IMG/VR virus record: IMGVR_UViG_3300047557_000172
Span: 1-31,020 of that record
Source of the DNA: a virus
DNA length: 31,020 nucleotides
Strand: one strand, 5' to 3'
The notes below the pieces were generated by a model. It saw only the letters and a program-made list of their open reading frames with translations. It was not told the DNA's origin and made no database searches. Below, piece by piece: positions 5,162 to 20,763 of the stretch. Numbering within the stretch: the stretch's first letter is position 1; each line of letters opens with the position of its first letter. The position numbers were made by a program, and so were the translations under genes.

Positions 5162-6148
5162 TTAGGCTGCTTCTGCAAATTCCACGGCTAACTCGAGAGC
5201 TTCGCGCTTACGGTTAGCTGCAGAACCAAACCATGCAGAAGTCAAACGCTTGTCTTGATCGTTACCGGCTACGTGGTCGTAGTAGTAAGTCACAGCGTTG
5301 AACGCGCCCCACCAAGTACCTGCTGAAGTCTTCAGATCAGCGCCTGGTTGGGTATCGACAAGCTCGTATAAGCGGTTCACAACGCGGCCAAGATCTGCGC
5401 GGTTGACGAGGCCGTCTTCGCTTTGCTCTTGAGCTGTCTGGAACAGTGTTGGGTTGACAAGCTTGCTGAAGAACTCAAGAACCTTCTGGTCCTTAGCACG
5501 CTTAGATGCCAAGAATTCAGACTTGTCTTTGAATACGTCAAGAGCTTTCATTGCCAAGCCAACTTTTTCTGCAGCCTGTTGCTTGATCTGATCGTCAAAA
5601 GCGCGATCATGAGACATGCGGAAAGTGTTCTCTTGGTTGTGGTTGTTGCGCAGCGCAGCAGTCAATGTGTTGTTGCAAACCACGCGGATTGGTGTGAAGA
5701 GGATCTGCAAAGACTTGCCCCAGATGTGTGGGTTGTCAAGCAAGATGTAGCCTTCGACTTCGTCTTTGCCACCGAGCATGAAGCCGCCGTTGATCTTGGC
5801 CAAGCCCCATACGCGCTTACCGCCGTGCAAGCTGCCAGCTGTTTCCATCTTCATGTCGCCAGCTTTGCAGAACTTGTCAAAGAACTCAAAAACTTCCTGA
5901 TTCTGAGTTGGTGTGTATTCGTTGCCGCAGATGCCAAGGATACGGTGATCCGTGTTGCGAACCAAGGCATAGTGACTGTTGATCTGTGTGTCTAGCTCGT
6001 CGACAAACAGAGCTTTCTTTTCAACCCTCCAGTCAAGTTGCGCAGCTTGCAACATTTGTGCAGGTGTTAGATCTGCAGAGACTGGGGTACCAAGACCGTG
6101 CCAAGGAACTTCGTTAGCGTAGGCCATCGTTTCGACTTCGTGTGACAT
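5162..6148 (-). CDS. DUF932 phage/plasmid-like protein
   Basis: A 328-aa protein of the DUF932 (phage/plasmid-like, TIGR03299) family. It shows the family's N-terminal pattern, with MSHEVETM followed by VPWHGLGTPV, central repeated ALVRNTDHRILGICG and YTPTQNQEVFEFFD, and a C-terminal WGAFNAVTYYYDHVAG. The molecular role of the family is not established; members are found on phages and plasmids among replication genes. Start ATG at 6148 has AAAGGA 6 bases upstream. It is the first gene after the only sizeable intergenic region, so it is probably the first product of the early/middle transcript, and it is followed by a strong hairpin that could make it the most abundant one. Family call firm, function unknown. 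Confidence 0.88.
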   Translation of the reverse strand: MSHEVETMAYANEVPWHGLGTPVSADLTPAQMLQAAQLDWRVEKKALFVDELDTQINSHYALVRNTDHRILGICGNEYTPTQNQEVFEFFDKFCKAGDMKMETAGSLHGGKRVWGLAKINGGFMLGGKDEVEGYILLDNPHIWGKSLQILFTPIRVVCNNTLTAALRNNHNQENTFRMSHDRAFDDQIKQQAAEKVGLAMKALDVFKDKSEFLASKRAKDQKVLEFFSKLVNPTLFQTAQEQSEDGLVNRADLGRVVNRLYELVDTQPGADLKTSAGTWWGAFNAVTYYYDHVAGNDQDKRLTSAWFGSAANRKREALELAVEFAEAA

Positions 6149-15149: not shown

Positions 15150-17030
15150 TTAGGACCTCTTCAAATAGCTTAGGGGGCTCTTGGCATCAGGGCTAATCTT
15201 TCCTTTGGCCAAGCTTTGTCCCTTTTGTTTGCGGATTTCCTCTCTCATCTGATCTAAGCGATCTGCACCTGCTTCAGATGAACCATTGCCCAAGAGAGCA
15301 ACTGTCTCAGCATCAAATACATATTCGCCATCAGAGAGTACGGCATTCACATCATCTGAACGACCGTCAGCACCTCCGCCTACGTTGTAGCTGCGGACCA
15401 TGTTTAATGCCCCACCGTTTGCCATCTTTGTAGGAGGCGCGCCGTATTGGTAGTAGGAAGTCTTAGGATTGCGGTTCACTGGTTGAGGACGACCTTGCGG
15501 CATGTTGCCCTGAGGCATCATTTGTCCACGCATACCGCCGCCTGCAGGAGGCATATTGCCAGTCTGCATTGCTTGTGCAAGACCACCCATAGGAGGACGA
15601 CGCATTGGCATCTGACCACCGTTTGCAAACTTCATCAAACCACCGTTACGTGCATTTGCAGGAGGATTGACTAGATCAAAACGAGCAGGCGTAAAGAACT
15701 GGAATTCACCACCTGTTTGTCCGTACTTTGAAAAATCATCGCCGTACTGATTCTGTTGACGAACATAGTTGTAGATGTCCATCGGGCGAGTGAAGCTAGG
15801 ATCACGGGTGCTGCCAGGTTGTGGCTGAGCACTAGGAGGTGCTCCTTGGCTCAATGCCCCAGTTGCAAGTGTAATACCTGCAAGTGTGGTCAACGGATTT
15901 TCAATGGCGTAGTCAACTACCTTACCAGCCAAGCCCGTCACGTCTTGCTTGTTGATGTCACCAAGTTCAAAGCTCTTAAGTTTGTCTGCAAGACTCTTAG
16001 GAGCAACAGACGGCGTAGAAGCGTACTGAATTGTTTCGGGTGCAGGAGTAAAGCCATACTGGTTAATAGTGCCTGCAGGGCTTCCCATGCCATAGAGCTT
16101 ACCGCTCTCACCAGTCCAAACATCGCCCATACCTCTGATCGATGGATCTAGGCTGTTCATGCTGTAGGTGAAATCAGGAATTGCTTCTTGAGCAATGCTT
16201 AAACCAGGGCCTCCCGTTGTGCTAGGGAACTGCAAACCAGGGCCTGTGCTCTGCATACCTGCAGTCAAGCTGTAGTCAATATTGCCTGACAGATCTCTTG
16301 GCAATGAAGCCATCGGATCAAACTTAGGCACTCTCAAACCAACGTTTGATTGAGCGCTGGTGTTCAGGTAGTCAGGTGTTGATACTTGTGCCAGAGGGCT
16401 TGGAGGAGGTGCAGAAGTGCTTGCAGTCGCAATGTCGTCTACCGTATTGGCTGCTGCATCATCAACAAAATCTAATGGAGTAGGATTTAATGGAGGCGGC
16501 GGAGGTACGGCCGCTGTTGTAGCTCCTCCAGGAATATTGTCAGGAACTGCATCAGACAATAGAGTCAGATCATTACTAGGAAGCGAAATCGCTTCATCAG
16601 GTAGTGTAGCTAGTCCTGTTTCAGTTCTTCCACTAAAAGCACTGTCACCGCCACCAAAATAATCAAATGCTCCCTTAGTAGCTCCTGCAGTAACACCTGC
16701 AATTAAACCACCTTTAAGAGCTTCATCAAAATCTTCACCTTGAACAAGGCCTGCCGTCGTGTTAGCAGCAGCTGCACCAAGACCTGCGCCAACGGCACCG
16801 GCAGCCGCTCCAAACCCGCTGAGTGCAGGGGCAATTGCAGGACCTAAAAATGCAGCACCGGCAACCGTAGCAACTGCCGTTAGAGGGTCATCTAGAATTG
16901 GCTGAATAACATAATCATCGATGGCTTCACCAACGTCACTAAGAACATCACCTACGCCCTCGACAACATCACCAACAGCTTCTACAACGCCGCCAATTGC
17001 GTTACCTATTGCTGAAACAACTGCGCTCAT
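15150..17030 (-). CDS. Internal virion protein with Gly-rich motifs and a conserved C-terminal module
   Basis: A 626-aa protein. Residues 1-40 have a heptad-like VVEAVGDVVEGVGDVL pattern, followed by a Gly/Ala hydrophobic stretch (52-95, GAAFLGPAIAPALSGFG) that could enter a membrane. The middle is Pro/Ser/Thr-rich and probably extended, with a proline run near 176-180. Motifs GGLMKFANGG (463-472) and KMANGG (535-540) match the 1064-residue protein. The C-terminus, about 548-620 (ADGRSDDVNAVLSDGEYVFD and LLGNGSSEAGADRLDQM), is a module I recognise from many aquatic-phage structural proteins, function unknown. ATG shares its A with the upstream stop (TAATG); GGAG lies 8 bases upstream. Confidence 0.75.
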   Translation of the reverse strand: MSAVVSAIGNAIGGVVEAVGDVVEGVGDVLSDVGEAIDDYVIQPILDDPLTAVATVAGAAFLGPAIAPALSGFGAAAGAVGAGLGAAAANTTAGLVQGEDFDEALKGGLIAGVTAGATKGAFDYFGGGDSAFSGRTETGLATLPDEAISLPSNDLTLLSDAVPDNIPGGATTAAVPPPPPLNPTPLDFVDDAAANTVDDIATASTSAPPPSPLAQVSTPDYLNTSAQSNVGLRVPKFDPMASLPRDLSGNIDYSLTAGMQSTGPGLQFPSTTGGPGLSIAQEAIPDFTYSMNSLDPSIRGMGDVWTGESGKLYGMGSPAGTINQYGFTPAPETIQYASTPSVAPKSLADKLKSFELGDINKQDVTGLAGKVVDYAIENPLTTLAGITLATGALSQGAPPSAQPQPGSTRDPSFTRPMDIYNYVRQQNQYGDDFSKYGQTGGEFQFFTPARFDLVNPPANARNGGLMKFANGGQMPMRRPPMGGLAQAMQTGNMPPAGGGMRGQMMPQGNMPQGRPQPVNRNPKTSYYQYGAPPTKMANGGALNMVRSYNVGGGADGRSDDVNAVLSDGEYVFDAETVALLGNGSSEAGADRLDQMREEIRKQKGQSLAKGKISPDAKSPLSYLKRS

Positions 17031-17485
17031 TATCTAGCTCCTTGACGTGGTGTCCCAAGTTGCAGAGTGACCCTGTATTGATTTTGTGGGGTCATCTCCA
17101 CTTGATAACCCATGCCAGGGTTTGGAGGATTCTTGGAAACATTACGGAAAATATTTAGAAGGCTTTGATCTTTGAATTCTGTAACCAAAACATCAAAGCC
17201 CGCTTTGTAGGCGTCAATCACGAATTGAAATCCTGATTGAGCAAAATTTTGTGCGGTGTCTGCGTTCAGTGCTCTGAATTGACCCTTACGAGGATCCTTA
17301 GGTGAGCCGTGAATGATGTAGATGACGTTGCCGTATCGATAGAATTTGCTGTCGGGCATCTGTACCTCCTTGACGAAGGTGGCATACAGGAATTCAGGTG
17401 GATATTCTGACTCTGTATTTTCGGCGGCAATTTTTAGAATCTCGCCGACCTGAAGCATTTGTTGTCTGCTATCGACTAATGGCAT
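17030..17485 (-). CDS. gp13-like internal virion protein (small)
   Basis: A 151-aa protein. The central part, GNVIYIIHGSP, FRALNADTAQNFAQSGFQFV and GFDVLVTEFKDQSLLNIFRNVSKNPP, then GMGYQV, matches the conserved pattern of small virion proteins of cyanophages and pelagiphages usually annotated as T7 gp13-like internal protein A, with a GNAT-like strand-helix order. I chose ATG at 17485, two bases after the upstream TGA and with GAGG upstream. A longer in-frame start at 17539 would lie inside the ketoacyl synthase gene and adds unrelated residues. It begins the internal virion block. Homology is judged by eye. Confidence 0.72.
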   Translation of the reverse strand: MPLVDSRQQMLQVGEILKIAAENTESEYPPEFLYATFVKEVQMPDSKFYRYGNVIYIIHGSPKDPRKGQFRALNADTAQNFAQSGFQFVIDAYKAGFDVLVTEFKDQSLLNIFRNVSKNPPNPGMGYQVEMTPQNQYRVTLQLGTPRQGAR

Positions 17486-17486
17486 A

Positions 17487-18608
17487 TCAAATCCTCTTAT
17501 CAAACAGTGCTGCGCTGAACACGTTGCCCATGCCTGCACTCAAGCTCATCACTATGCCATTAGGAGCTTCAACCGGATGCGAGAGGAACACATGATCCTC
17601 TTCTGTCCTATTCAAGATCTCAGGCACAGTGCCCAAATTCAAATCATTGAACAGCAAGAGGGTCTCTAAAAGTCCGCTCGCTCCCATCGTATGGCCGATT
17701 CGTTGCTTATACGATGTCGCTACAAACCCACTCAGGTTCTGTTCTAAACAAGCCTTTTCTGCAGCATTGTTAGACTTAGTCCCAGTACCATGAGTCTTAA
17801 CGATTTTAATTTGTTCTGGACGAATTTGACAAACTTCTATGGCACCTTTTATGGCTCTTGTAAAACCCTGGCCATCTTCTCGTTGACCGATGGCATTGCT
17901 CAGGATTTCAGTGGCCGTATAAGCCCCTAGAAGTTCGGCTTGTGGCTGTAGTCCAGACTTTTCCATAGCCTTTTCAGACTCAAATACGGCAAAGGCAGCG
18001 CCCTGGCCAATATAGAACCCAAAATTCTTAGAATCGAAGGCCGAGGGTACCACCTGGTGCTCCGCAGCCATCTTTTCAGTTAGTGTTGCTCCAGCTTCAC
18101 CGAAGAACTGGAGGGTCATATTGTTCACCTGGTCCTCAACGGCTAAGACAATGACTCGATCGAAGCCATAGAACCTGATCAGAGTCTGGACATCCATCAA
18201 CACCTTGAGGCTAGAGGTGCACGCGGTTGCATCCGTGGCTGTGTGATCTATTTCCCCGCACTGCGCAGCAATACGGCCGGCATAGATCTGGGTCAGAGAC
18301 AACGGAAGGACCTTATAGTTGAAGGTCATACTGTTCTCTTTGCCCATTTTGCGGCCTTCATTGGCAAAGTTACTATTGCCAGAGGCCAAAAGGAACGCGG
18401 TTTTGCCAGTCTGTGTCTGGCGAATCAGGTTCAAGAGATCTGGATCTAGGACCTTTTCTGCTATCACATGAGCAGGGTGAAACAGGCCTGTCTTGACCCT
18501 TGCGTAAGAGTCAGGGAACCAGTGGACTTTTTGTGGGAAATTGTGATCTTCGTAGACTTGCGTCTCTGTCGTGCAGACGTGACGGCTTTCGGTCAAGAAG
18601 ATTCTCAT
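17487..18608 (-). CDS. Beta-ketoacyl-ACP synthase (FabF/KAS II-like)
   Basis: A 373-aa thiolase-fold condensing enzyme that would join an acyl group to malonyl-ACP. All three catalytic residues are in place: Cys130 in DATACTSSL, His273 in KTHGTGTKSNN and His306 in KQRIGHTMGASG, with the conserved Lys301 five residues before His306. It is shorter than typical FabF (about 410), and the C-terminal gating loop is GMGN (in SAGMGNVFSAALF) instead of the usual GFGG, and the Asp after HGTGT is Asn, so it is a divergent member. The ATG at 18608 overlaps the ACP stop as ATGA, implying translational coupling; a GTG nine bases earlier is possible. Flanked by virion genes on both sides. Family is firm; pathway is unknown. 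Confidence 0.93.
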   Translation of the reverse strand: MRIFLTESRHVCTTETQVYEDHNFPQKVHWFPDSYARVKTGLFHPAHVIAEKVLDPDLLNLIRQTQTGKTAFLLASGNSNFANEGRKMGKENSMTFNYKVLPLSLTQIYAGRIAAQCGEIDHTATDATACTSSLKVLMDVQTLIRFYGFDRVIVLAVEDQVNNMTLQFFGEAGATLTEKMAAEHQVVPSAFDSKNFGFYIGQGAAFAVFESEKAMEKSGLQPQAELLGAYTATEILSNAIGQREDGQGFTRAIKGAIEVCQIRPEQIKIVKTHGTGTKSNNAAEKACLEQNLSGFVATSYKQRIGHTMGASGLLETLLLFNDLNLGTVPEILNRTEEDHVFLSHPVEAPNGIVMSLSAGMGNVFSAALFDKRI

Positions 18609-18895
18609 TGGATCCACCCAAATGCTTGTTCAAAAGATTCAGGTTGACGTCTACCATTAGCGACTAAGAAGTCAAAAGCTTCTTGTGGAGTTTTGGCTTG
18701 CATCTCCTTGCTCTTTTCATCTTCAACGTCGTAGATCTCGCACAAGTAAACTGTGCACATCAGCATGTCAAGGCTATCTAGACCAACATCGGTAAAGACT
18801 ACATCCATGCTGTCAATCGGTAAAAGCTCGTTGTGAAACGGCTTTGCTTTTTTAGCTACTTCGTGCAGCAGCTTGAGAAAATCTTGTTCTGTCAT
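18605..18895 (-). CDS. Acyl carrier protein
   Basis: A 96-aa acidic helical protein with the phosphopantetheine attachment motif DVGLDSLDMLM; Ser41 would carry the 4'-phosphopantetheine arm. Helix III, with LCEIYDVEDEKSKEM, and the following TPQEAFDFLV match the ACP fold. A 15-residue C-terminal tail, ending in FGWIQ, extends past the usual ACP end. No phosphopantetheinyl transferase or malonyl transferase is seen in the window, so host enzymes would have to charge it. Its ATG directly follows the stop of the 75-aa gene, and its own stop overlaps the synthase start, so the two are surely made together. Specific partner-substrate is unknown. Confidence 0.93.
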   Translation of the reverse strand: MTEQDFLKLLHEVAKKAKPFHNELLPIDSMDVVFTDVGLDSLDMLMCTVYLCEIYDVEDEKSKEMQAKTPQEAFDFLVANGRRQPESFEQAFGWIQ

Positions 18896-19123
18896 TTAGT
18901 CCACCATTTGTACGAACCGCTCAGCCCAGGAACGCCAGTCGTCAAAGAAAAATGGATTGGGGATATTCTTTTGGCTCAATCCCGAGATAACGCAGAATTG
19001 CAAACCCCACTGTCTCCAGTCTTCTTCATTTTCTAGCCTCGCTAGTGGACCATAGTTATCCAGATCGAGTACGATCTGATCAGCCCAATCGCGCAACTCA
19101 ATTATAACAGGCTGCGTGATCAC
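18896..19123 (-). CDS. Small conserved phage protein (75 aa), unknown function
   Basis: A 75-aa protein with two Trp-rich segments, ELRDWADQIV near the N-terminus and FFDDWRSWAERFVQMV at the C-terminus, the latter a pattern seen in many small phage proteins near tail genes. Its only in-frame start is GTG at 19123, overlapping the upstream TGA as GTGA, so translation depends on the tail-hub gene. It is followed without a gap by the ACP gene. It may belong with the tail genes before it or the ACP/synthase unit after it; no function is assigned. Confidence 0.72.
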   Translation of the reverse strand: MITQPVIIELRDWADQIVLDLDNYGPLARLENEEDWRQWGLQFCVISGLSQKNIPNPFFFDDWRSWAERFVQMVD

Positions 19124-20763
19124 GTGGAACCCCCTGCAACAGCCCCAAGCACGTTTCCGTCTGCAGGTTCGACGTGGGCAATGACCTGTCCCATCTGGTA
19201 GTCGCCATTGATCGTGTTCGAAGTGAATTTGAAGCGCAACTCTCGACGCTCTTCTTTGAACCAGACGACCTGCTGATAAGGATCTGCTGGTGTGGCGTAG
19301 ATGATACGCTCAGGACCTGCAACCTCACCTGCCTTGGCGTTGGTGCGACCAGTCAATTGGACGGTCATATTTTCAGACTGCACAAAGTCAGGCTCAATCA
19401 TCTCGACTCGGATCCACTTGCTCTGTGGTTGATTGCCAACTAAGAAGCTCATGTCAGCCGTCTCGAAGAATGAAGGGACTGCCGTGATGTTTTGACCATC
19501 AATCTCGTTGACACCGCTTTCATGCTGCCAGACCTTAAAGCCTTCTTCTGGTTGCACGATCCTGGTATTGCCGTCTTCTGTGATTCGAATGTCGTCGTTT
19601 TCAGTGATTCGAATGTTTGGCACAAAGTCAGATTGGGTGATGCCACACAACAAGGGAGCTGCATAAACAGGTGACCATTCACCAGCAGAACGACCGCCAT
19701 TAGGCAGTTCGGTGTCATACCAGGTGTTCTCTTTGATGTTGTAGATGACTGCGTGGGTGCATTCGGTAGCATCTCCACGGGGGTAGCACCACCAGATCTC
19801 ACCATACCGAGGCACTTTGTAGGCAAACACCTTTTGAGCAGCTGCCCTGTTTAGACCGTCAAAGAAGTAGTTGATGTTCAGGTTGTTAGGCACTTCCCTG
19901 ACCACGCCGTTAAACATCAAAAAGCGGTCAGTACCGCACCAGAAGTAGATGCCGTCATATTCGATGACAGAAGCTGCTGACAAGATGCTTGACTGACTGC
20001 TGATTGTGTCAAACTGGAAGATCTGGGTGCCACCAACAAACGAAGCGCGAATGACCGCATCTGCGGACCAGTAGAGGCCAGCAGGTGCATTTCCGGGTCC
20101 TCCTCTAAGGGGAAGTCCACGAACAATCTTTTGGGCGGCTATTCTGGCATTTCCTGAACCCACGCCTGTCAGGTCTGCAGGATCCCCAGCGACTGACCAG
20201 CCTAGAAAACCGTCATGGCCAAAGTAGGTCAGGTAGGGGTGCAAGACGCAGACGCCACCCGTCACGTTAGCTCCGGTGGGGAAAGTTGTCACTTCAGTTA
20301 GTAGGTTTGTGCCAATCAAATTGCCTACGAATAACTGACCGCCATCCGTGTTGCAAATACAGTTAGCATTAGGTGCTACCTGAGCCACCAATAGGTTCAC
20401 AGGAGGAACCCCTTGGCTGTCATAGATCACATCAAACTGCCAAAGGTTTGCGTCACTGACTTGCAGGCTCAATGGGGTTCTGTTGGTGATCAGACTAGAA
20501 ACACCGTTTCCATTGATCCTGAAGCGTTCTACGGTGCCAGCCGATCCTGAATGGAAGTAGGTGTAATTGTTTTCAGTGTACGTCTTAACCCCTCGGCTGA
20601 TCTCAGAGAGGTAACGGTTGATGACCCGGTAACCGCCGATCTTACGAGGAAGACCACGCTGCCAACGGACCCATTGACCGTCTACGTAAAAATCGCCTTC
20701 AAACCTGGTACCGTCACGCTTGATACCCGGTTGAGACCTAATGATAACCGGGGTTGTTGCCAT
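19120..20763 (-). CDS. Tail hub / DNA-stabilisation-like protein (predicted beta-propeller)
   Basis: A 547-aa protein rich in beta strands and aromatic residues. N-terminal GIKRDGTRFEGDFYVDGQWVRWQRGLPRKIGGY is the typical opening of phage tail/stabilisation proteins that sit below the portal. Repeated segments such as GIYFWCGTDRFLMFNG and EIWWCYPRG fit propeller blades. A small tandem repeat, RITENDDI then RITEDGNT, is visible also in the DNA (GTGATTCGAATGT at 19580-19592 and 19604-19616). It lies next to the adaptor and fibre genes. Its ATG shares one base with the upstream TGA. It may correspond to P22 gp10 or T7 gp12 in place, but homology is judged from pattern only. Confidence 0.7.
   Translation of the reverse strand: MATTPVIIRSQPGIKRDGTRFEGDFYVDGQWVRWQRGLPRKIGGYRVINRYLSEISRGVKTYTENNYTYFHSGSAGTVERFRINGNGVSSLITNRTPLSLQVSDANLWQFDVIYDSQGVPPVNLLVAQVAPNANCICNTDGGQLFVGNLIGTNLLTEVTTFPTGANVTGGVCVLHPYLTYFGHDGFLGWSVAGDPADLTGVGSGNARIAAQKIVRGLPLRGGPGNAPAGLYWSADAVIRASFVGGTQIFQFDTISSQSSILSAASVIEYDGIYFWCGTDRFLMFNGVVREVPNNLNINYFFDGLNRAAAQKVFAYKVPRYGEIWWCYPRGDATECTHAVIYNIKENTWYDTELPNGGRSAGEWSPVYAAPLLCGITQSDFVPNIRITENDDIRITEDGNTRIVQPEEGFKVWQHESGVNEIDGQNITAVPSFFETADMSFLVGNQPQSKWIRVEMIEPDFVQSENMTVQLTGRTNAKAGEVAGPERIIYATPADPYQQVVWFKEERRELRFKFTSNTINGDYQMGQVIAHVEPADGNVLGAVAGGST

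Follow-up and report, generated by a model that had tools for sequence, protein, structure and literature searches.

A viral ketosynthase and acyl carrier protein gene pair beside a predicted GNAT-fold acyltransferase in a phage virion module

The locus and its gene order

The 31,020-base IMG/VR virus record IMGVR_UViG_3300047557_000172 (hereafter the window, meaning the whole stretch of DNA analysed) contains a virion module, with all genes on the minus strand, in which a gene for an acyl carrier protein (ACP) is followed directly by one for a ketosynthase (KS), then by genes for a predicted GNAT-fold acyltransferase and a large amphipathic virion protein (Table 1). An earlier note, written from the sequence alone, had described a catalytically complete condensing system at this position, and our gene calls and alignments agreed that an ACP and a condensing enzyme are both present within the virion module of the window with their catalytic residues intact. 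Cys130, His273 and His306 of the synthase and Ser41 of the ACP were all as claimed when numbered from the ATG at 18608, with Lys301 as an additional active-site residue. This internal ATG is the conserved start of the KS gene, which lies in a longer frame opening with GTG (17487-18617), and the ATGA coupling was likewise present, the relatives counted for it in Table 1 being full-length viral KS genes with an ATG start. Among close relatives, the ratio of nonsynonymous to synonymous substitution rates (dN/dS) was 0.07-0.09 for the KS, 0.09 for the ACP and 0.04-0.08 for the 151-residue GNAT gene, so all three are under purifying selection.

Table 1. Features of the virion module that carries the ACP-KS pair, in window coordinates
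Feature	Position	Strand	Remarks
P22 gp10-like stabilization/tail hub protein	19120..20763	-	phrog_3287, 1.8e-30; upstream boundary of module
Small conserved virion-module gene, 75 amino acids	18896..19123	-	similar small gene abuts GNAT gene in loci without ACP-KS
Acyl carrier protein (ACP), 96 amino acids	18605..18895	-	phosphopantetheine attachment Ser41 (DSLD)
ATGA in which the ACP stop overlaps the KS start (translational coupling)	18605..18608	-	kept in 176/187 relatives
Ketosynthase (KS), 373 amino acids from ATG	17487..18608	-	Cys130, His273, Lys301, His306; SAGMGN loop
Predicted GNAT-fold acyltransferase-like protein, 151 amino acids	17030..17485	-	model with predicted local distance difference test (pLDDT) 92.3; fold matches; without R/QxxGxG/A coenzyme A (CoA) loop
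Virion-module protein, 626 amino acids, candidate acyl acceptor (inferred role)	15150..17030	-	amphipathic/hydrophobic N-terminal part; M-S/G-A-V-V start; conserved C-terminal region

The ketosynthase and its acyl carrier protein

The KS matched the Pfam families PF02801 (3e-15) and PF00109 (1e-8), and its predicted model (pLDDT 92.7) displayed a thiolase-type fold over the full length of the protein, aligning with the FabF of S. pneumoniae (1ox0) at a Z of 41.9 and a root-mean-square deviation of 2.9 over 355 residues with 22% identity. The Cys-His-Lys-His site was invariant in 43 diverse viral KSs. Its predicted fold and its active site identify the enzyme as a ketosynthase, for which condensation activity is predicted, and it shares with FabF and the other type II beta-ketoacyl-ACP synthases (KAS II; PF00109 plus PF02801) the presence of an adjacent ACP gene. 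In contrast to those enzymes, which are about 410 residues long, the viral protein is shorter, GMGN replaces GFGGTN within an SAGMGN loop that is a signature of the entire viral KS family, and neither FabG nor FabD genes lie nearby. The FabF model TIGR03150 scored 108 bits (3e-31), far under its cut-off of 493.75, and when 43 viral and 32 cellular KSs were placed in one tree, all the viral sequences fell into a single clade with 100/100 support on a very long stem of several changes per site. Judged by the equivalog score and the separate clade, the viral KS is thus not FabF proper, and the label FabF-like given to it in the earlier note holds for fold and active site and not for identity. The tree, whose cellular sequences were mostly from Bacteroidota plus E. 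coli, also indicates that the KS has a long history in viruses and was not captured recently.

The serine of the DS[LM]D motif was kept in all 164 ACP relatives examined. No Pfam match was obtained for the window ACP itself, and PF00550 was matched by only 2 of 22 family members (E<=0.01), the window protein not among them; the family profile did reach solved ACPs at E=0.001. The protein therefore resembles PF00550 carriers in its DSLD serine, its profile match to solved structures and its pairing with a KS, and differs from them in lying under Pfam detection, in a conserved C-terminal extension and in being retained after KS loss in one clade. The condensing pair is catalytically intact by sequence and is probably directed at a specialised substrate.

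Each of 16 viral genomes (54-67 kb) carried exactly one KS, and none encoded a phosphopantetheinyl transferase, a malonyl-type (FabD-type) acyltransferase or a short-chain reductase/ketoreductase, although not all of these records are necessarily complete. Because those enzymes were missing from the 16 genomes, the pair cannot run fatty acid synthesis alone and must plug into the host pathway, which rules out a complete phage-encoded one.

Distribution and genomic contexts of the pair

A profile scan detected KS relatives in at least 579 viral stretches. Pattern-based scans lean towards sequences that carry the family motifs, and there may be viral KSs of greater divergence. ACP lay immediately upstream in 205 of the 213 distinct viral KS genes fetched, the other 8 being cut by contig ends. 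A scan of viral contigs with KS gave 34 loci, and a phage collection the circular record MW202545; in every sufficiently long locus of that scan the ACP stood directly before the KS, and the flanking virion genes were nearly always the same. A search for the pair in other phages, as suggested in the earlier note, thus found it widely, mostly with the same virion genes on either side. Judged from these contigs, the carriers are hundreds of uncultured aquatic phages, and the usual neighbours of the pair are genes for a predicted acyltransferase and for a virion protein that is membrane-active.

In MW202545 (Caudoviricetes sp. ctpbd312, Manatee Spring) the KS and ACP were 56% and 43% identical to those of the window; the ACP and GNAT genes are annotated there as hypothetical, the hub homologue as 'phage stabilization protein', and the system is undescribed in the record. 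The sole close relative among 84,980 cellular species genomes (53%, with the same order of ACP, KS and next gene) came from contig JAGYJQ010000016.1, which encodes a major head protein alongside tail genes and was binned in a Balneolaceae metagenome-assembled genome. This binning may be a host clue or a binning error.

A second context was also apparent. For 41 of 153 non-redundant loci the gene after the KS belonged to another class, of about 100 residues and resembling a helix-turn-helix protein, and in the one such locus that was examined gene by gene the pair lay among helicase, primase and exonuclease genes. The family of about 100 residues (locus L161, 7403-7699, and relatives) carries the motif RLSDEE...TEKYWRYHY and has no PHROG name. 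Two changes on the KS tree were needed to account for the two placements, which rules out one fixed genomic place; on this evidence the ACP-KS pair is a movable cassette that in roughly a quarter of cases is found outside the virion-module context. Some loci without the pair had a small gene, similar to the 75-residue gene of the window, that abutted the GNAT gene directly, and such loci look like an empty site. Since the pair occurs in two contexts, a position in the virion module does not alone imply late expression for the family, and the earlier proposal to that effect cannot be generalised.

Published accounts of viral contigs with fabF (PMC7029224, PMC10653327, PMC8224337) do not describe this arrangement, and we found no description of an ACP-KS-GNAT system in the open-access literature searched. 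One of these, a Roseobacter prophage fabG-acpP-fabF (PMC8224337), also places acpP and fabF in phage regions, but its genes are arranged as in the host fab operon, and its acpP and fabF are probably host genes rather than members of the viral KS family.

A predicted GNAT-fold protein follows the ketosynthase

The true start of the 151-residue gene downstream of the KS is the ATG at 17485, not the GTG at 17539, and profile searches gave its family no Pfam or PHROG name. Its model, built from 47 diverse sequences, had the GNAT strand/helix order aa-bbb-a-b-a-bb; all 50 top-ranked PDB structures in a Foldseek search were GNATs, with Z up to 11.3 (RimI), and the best viral structural match was an unnamed phage protein at a template modelling score of 0.91. 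Based on this model, we predict that the gene encodes a GNAT-fold acyltransferase. S6, E40, N53, D76 and N80 were invariant and N74 was present in 46 of 47 sequences, these being the most conserved polar residues of the family. The R/QxxGxG/A CoA-binding loop was absent from 43 of the 47 rows, the region reading ALNADTAxNF. That a neighbour of the pair is a predicted GNAT-fold acyltransferase without the usual CoA loop is one new element here. T7 gp13 had been an initial guess as a relative of the gene, and profile comparison gave it no support.

These features recall the RtxC/HlyC toxin-activating acyltransferases. The GNAT-fold RtxC protein ApxIC uses acyl-ACP and has no CoA-contacting elements, and for HlyC the source of the acyl group is acyl-ACP (reviewed in PMC8339906). 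The phage protein is similar in its predicted GNAT fold, in the missing CoA loop and in being encoded directly upstream of a membrane-active protein. It differs in that no sequence kinship was detected, the parallel being one of analogy only; in lying in a phage virion module rather than a toxin operon; in its conserved His, which is found in 41 of 47 sequences and is not invariant; and in having an acyl donor and acceptor that are putative. At E<=1 a Pfam search of the 151-residue protein gave no HlyC match, and neither ApxIC nor HlyC was among the 50 best fold matches listed, which is not evidence against kinship.

Linkage of the three genes and patterns of loss

Samples of the GNAT family were taken from best-80 lists and comprised 179 distinct copies, of which 160 had an adjacent KS, 5 had an ACP without a KS, 1 was cut and 13 had neither gene adjacent; 3 of these 13 came from viruses that carry the pair elsewhere in the genome. 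For the second context, all four contigs with a virion hub also carried the GNAT gene, and seven contigs had no hub and no GNAT gene where it was sought (two were tested for the hub only). A search with the single GNAT protein of a replication-type genome returned only 3 loci. Divergent GNAT copies without an adjacent pair, several of them on partial contigs, rule out a strict obligate linkage.

Losses were informative in the same regard. Six contigs, and one further contig with them, had lost the KS and kept the ACP, with a remnant of KS residues ~254-288 where one was detected. The ACP of this clade retained DSLD and evolved at a dN/dS of 0.04-0.16, and this continued constraint indicates that the ACP performs some function that does not depend on the phage KS. 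In two other contigs, a counter-case to the linkage, the ACP was missing and only KS residues 289-323 survived, as a remnant immediately before the GNAT gene; this is another, separate loss of the pair. The combinations seen were GNAT alone, GNAT with ACP, and GNAT with ACP and KS, and a KS without an ACP was not seen among the distinct copies fetched. Such a nested pattern is expected if the GNAT protein is the last step, the ACP the donor carrier and the KS a specialised chain supplier.

The candidate acceptor

The protein encoded after the GNAT gene begins M-S/G-A-V-V; among 91 distinct sequences, 80 have Ser or Gly as the second residue. Its N-terminus forms a long amphipathic stretch (VVEAVGDVVESVVDVV) followed by a hydrophobic segment, and this composition fits a membrane-active part. 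The protein and its relatives share a conserved C-terminal region (GRSDDVNAVLSDGEYV...LGNGSS..AG).

Elsewhere in the window, the best NCBIfam match of a DNA polymerase (3-1697) was DpoZ of aminoadenine phages, below the cut-off, and the idea of an aminoadenine (Z-DNA) phage was rejected when no PurZ-type gene was found in 16 related genomes. A TIGR03299 phage/plasmid-like protein (5162-6148) lies near nucleotide-metabolism genes (thyA, tmk-like, MazG).

A proposed acyl supply cassette and its alternatives

The genes, their intact active sites, their conservation and linkage and the predicted GNAT fold are directly supported. As an explanation for them, we propose, with a probability of roughly 40%, a virus-specific acyl supply cassette in which a host-activated ACP and the phage KS feed the GNAT protein, which would most likely acylate the adjacent virion protein. 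The chemistry of every step, along with donor, acceptor and purpose, we infer as follows. A host phosphopantetheinyl transferase would arm the phage ACP at Ser41, and the phage KS would set or extend an acyl chain on it with the help of host malonyl-ACP and host reductases. The GNAT-fold protein would then take acyl-ACP rather than acyl-CoA as the donor and acylate an amine. The most likely target would be the amphipathic virion protein encoded next, either at its N-terminal Ser or Gly, once Met has been removed, or at a lysine, and the acyl group may help it into the host membrane as the genome is ejected. Virion-protein acylation was one of three options in the earlier note, and it gains support over the other two because the next genes encode a predicted GNAT and then an amphipathic virion protein.

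Several points weigh against this proposal. Many bacterial proteins have a small residue at the N-terminus. The GNAT fold is predicted, and the protein could be a structural pseudo-enzyme. The GNAT gene is a core part of the virion module and is present without the pair in some contigs, a 40.7-kb contig carries a divergent GNAT gene and no KS, and as the leading alternative the GNAT linkage could simply reflect shared ancestry of the virion module. The occurrence of the pair in a replication module, in turn, suggests a role not tied to assembly.

That placement also suits the strongest competing explanation, remodelling of host lipids, in which ACP and KS would divert host fatty acid synthesis and so alter membrane lipids or the acyl chains of lipopolysaccharide, with the GNAT gene as an unrelated neighbour. 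KS and ACP are the classic pair of type II fatty acid synthesis with their residues intact, they move as a unit that can sit with replication genes, the remaining enzymes would all be supplied by the host, and fabF-type genes in viral contigs have been interpreted in this way (PMC10653327, PMC7029224). However, bulk lipid synthesis would need no dedicated and strongly diverged ACP, and neither the persistence of the ACP after KS loss in one clade nor the strong association of the pair with the GNAT gene would be expected; we regard this explanation as unlikely, though it deserves serious consideration.

Markedly less probable is that ACP, KS and GNAT together make a diffusible N-acyl compound, a signal or inhibitor. 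Both LuxI and FeeM have a GNAT fold and use acyl-ACP, and a GNAT fold without the CoA loop does adjoin the pair, but the GNAT gene remains by the amphipathic protein in the virion module even when the pair is elsewhere, and no transporter or receptor gene was identified.

Slightly weaker again is a non-condensing KS that builds no chains and serves as an acyl transferase, or as a decoy, binding the ACP of the host or inhibiting its fatty acid synthesis. The altered gate loop (GMGN) and a profile match to the AmcF acyltransferase subunit, a non-condensing relative (94.5 bits), are consistent with such a role, whereas the invariance of the second His and the Lys, which are typical of decarboxylative condensation, weighs against it.

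An assembly artefact or a recent capture of a host fab operon can be dismissed, as nothing was found in its favour, the junctions at 17487 and 18896 recurred in dozens of independent assemblies, the gene order was shared by the 34 contigs and circular MW202545, the viral KSs formed a single clade (100/100), no near-identical bacterial chromosome locus was found among the cellular genomes searched, and the sole close cellular match sits in a phage contig.

Implications

Two PHROG families of unknown function can now be given names, 35856 as the ketosynthase and 28189 as the ACP, and a GNAT fold is assigned, by prediction, to a widespread virion-module gene. The KS, ACP and GNAT genes are conserved virus-specific parts, not stray host genes. 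More speculatively, and at odds that we consider rather long, tailed phages may possess a protein-lipidation pathway of their own, in which a dedicated ACP and KS provide the chain, an ACP-dependent GNAT transfers it and a membrane-entering virion protein is acylated. We found no paper on phage-made lipidated particles with their own acyl supply in the open-access literature searched. If the linkage reflects chemistry, phages would lipidate their particles from an acyl supply of their own, and this, if true, would be of direct relevance to the passage of virion proteins through membranes.
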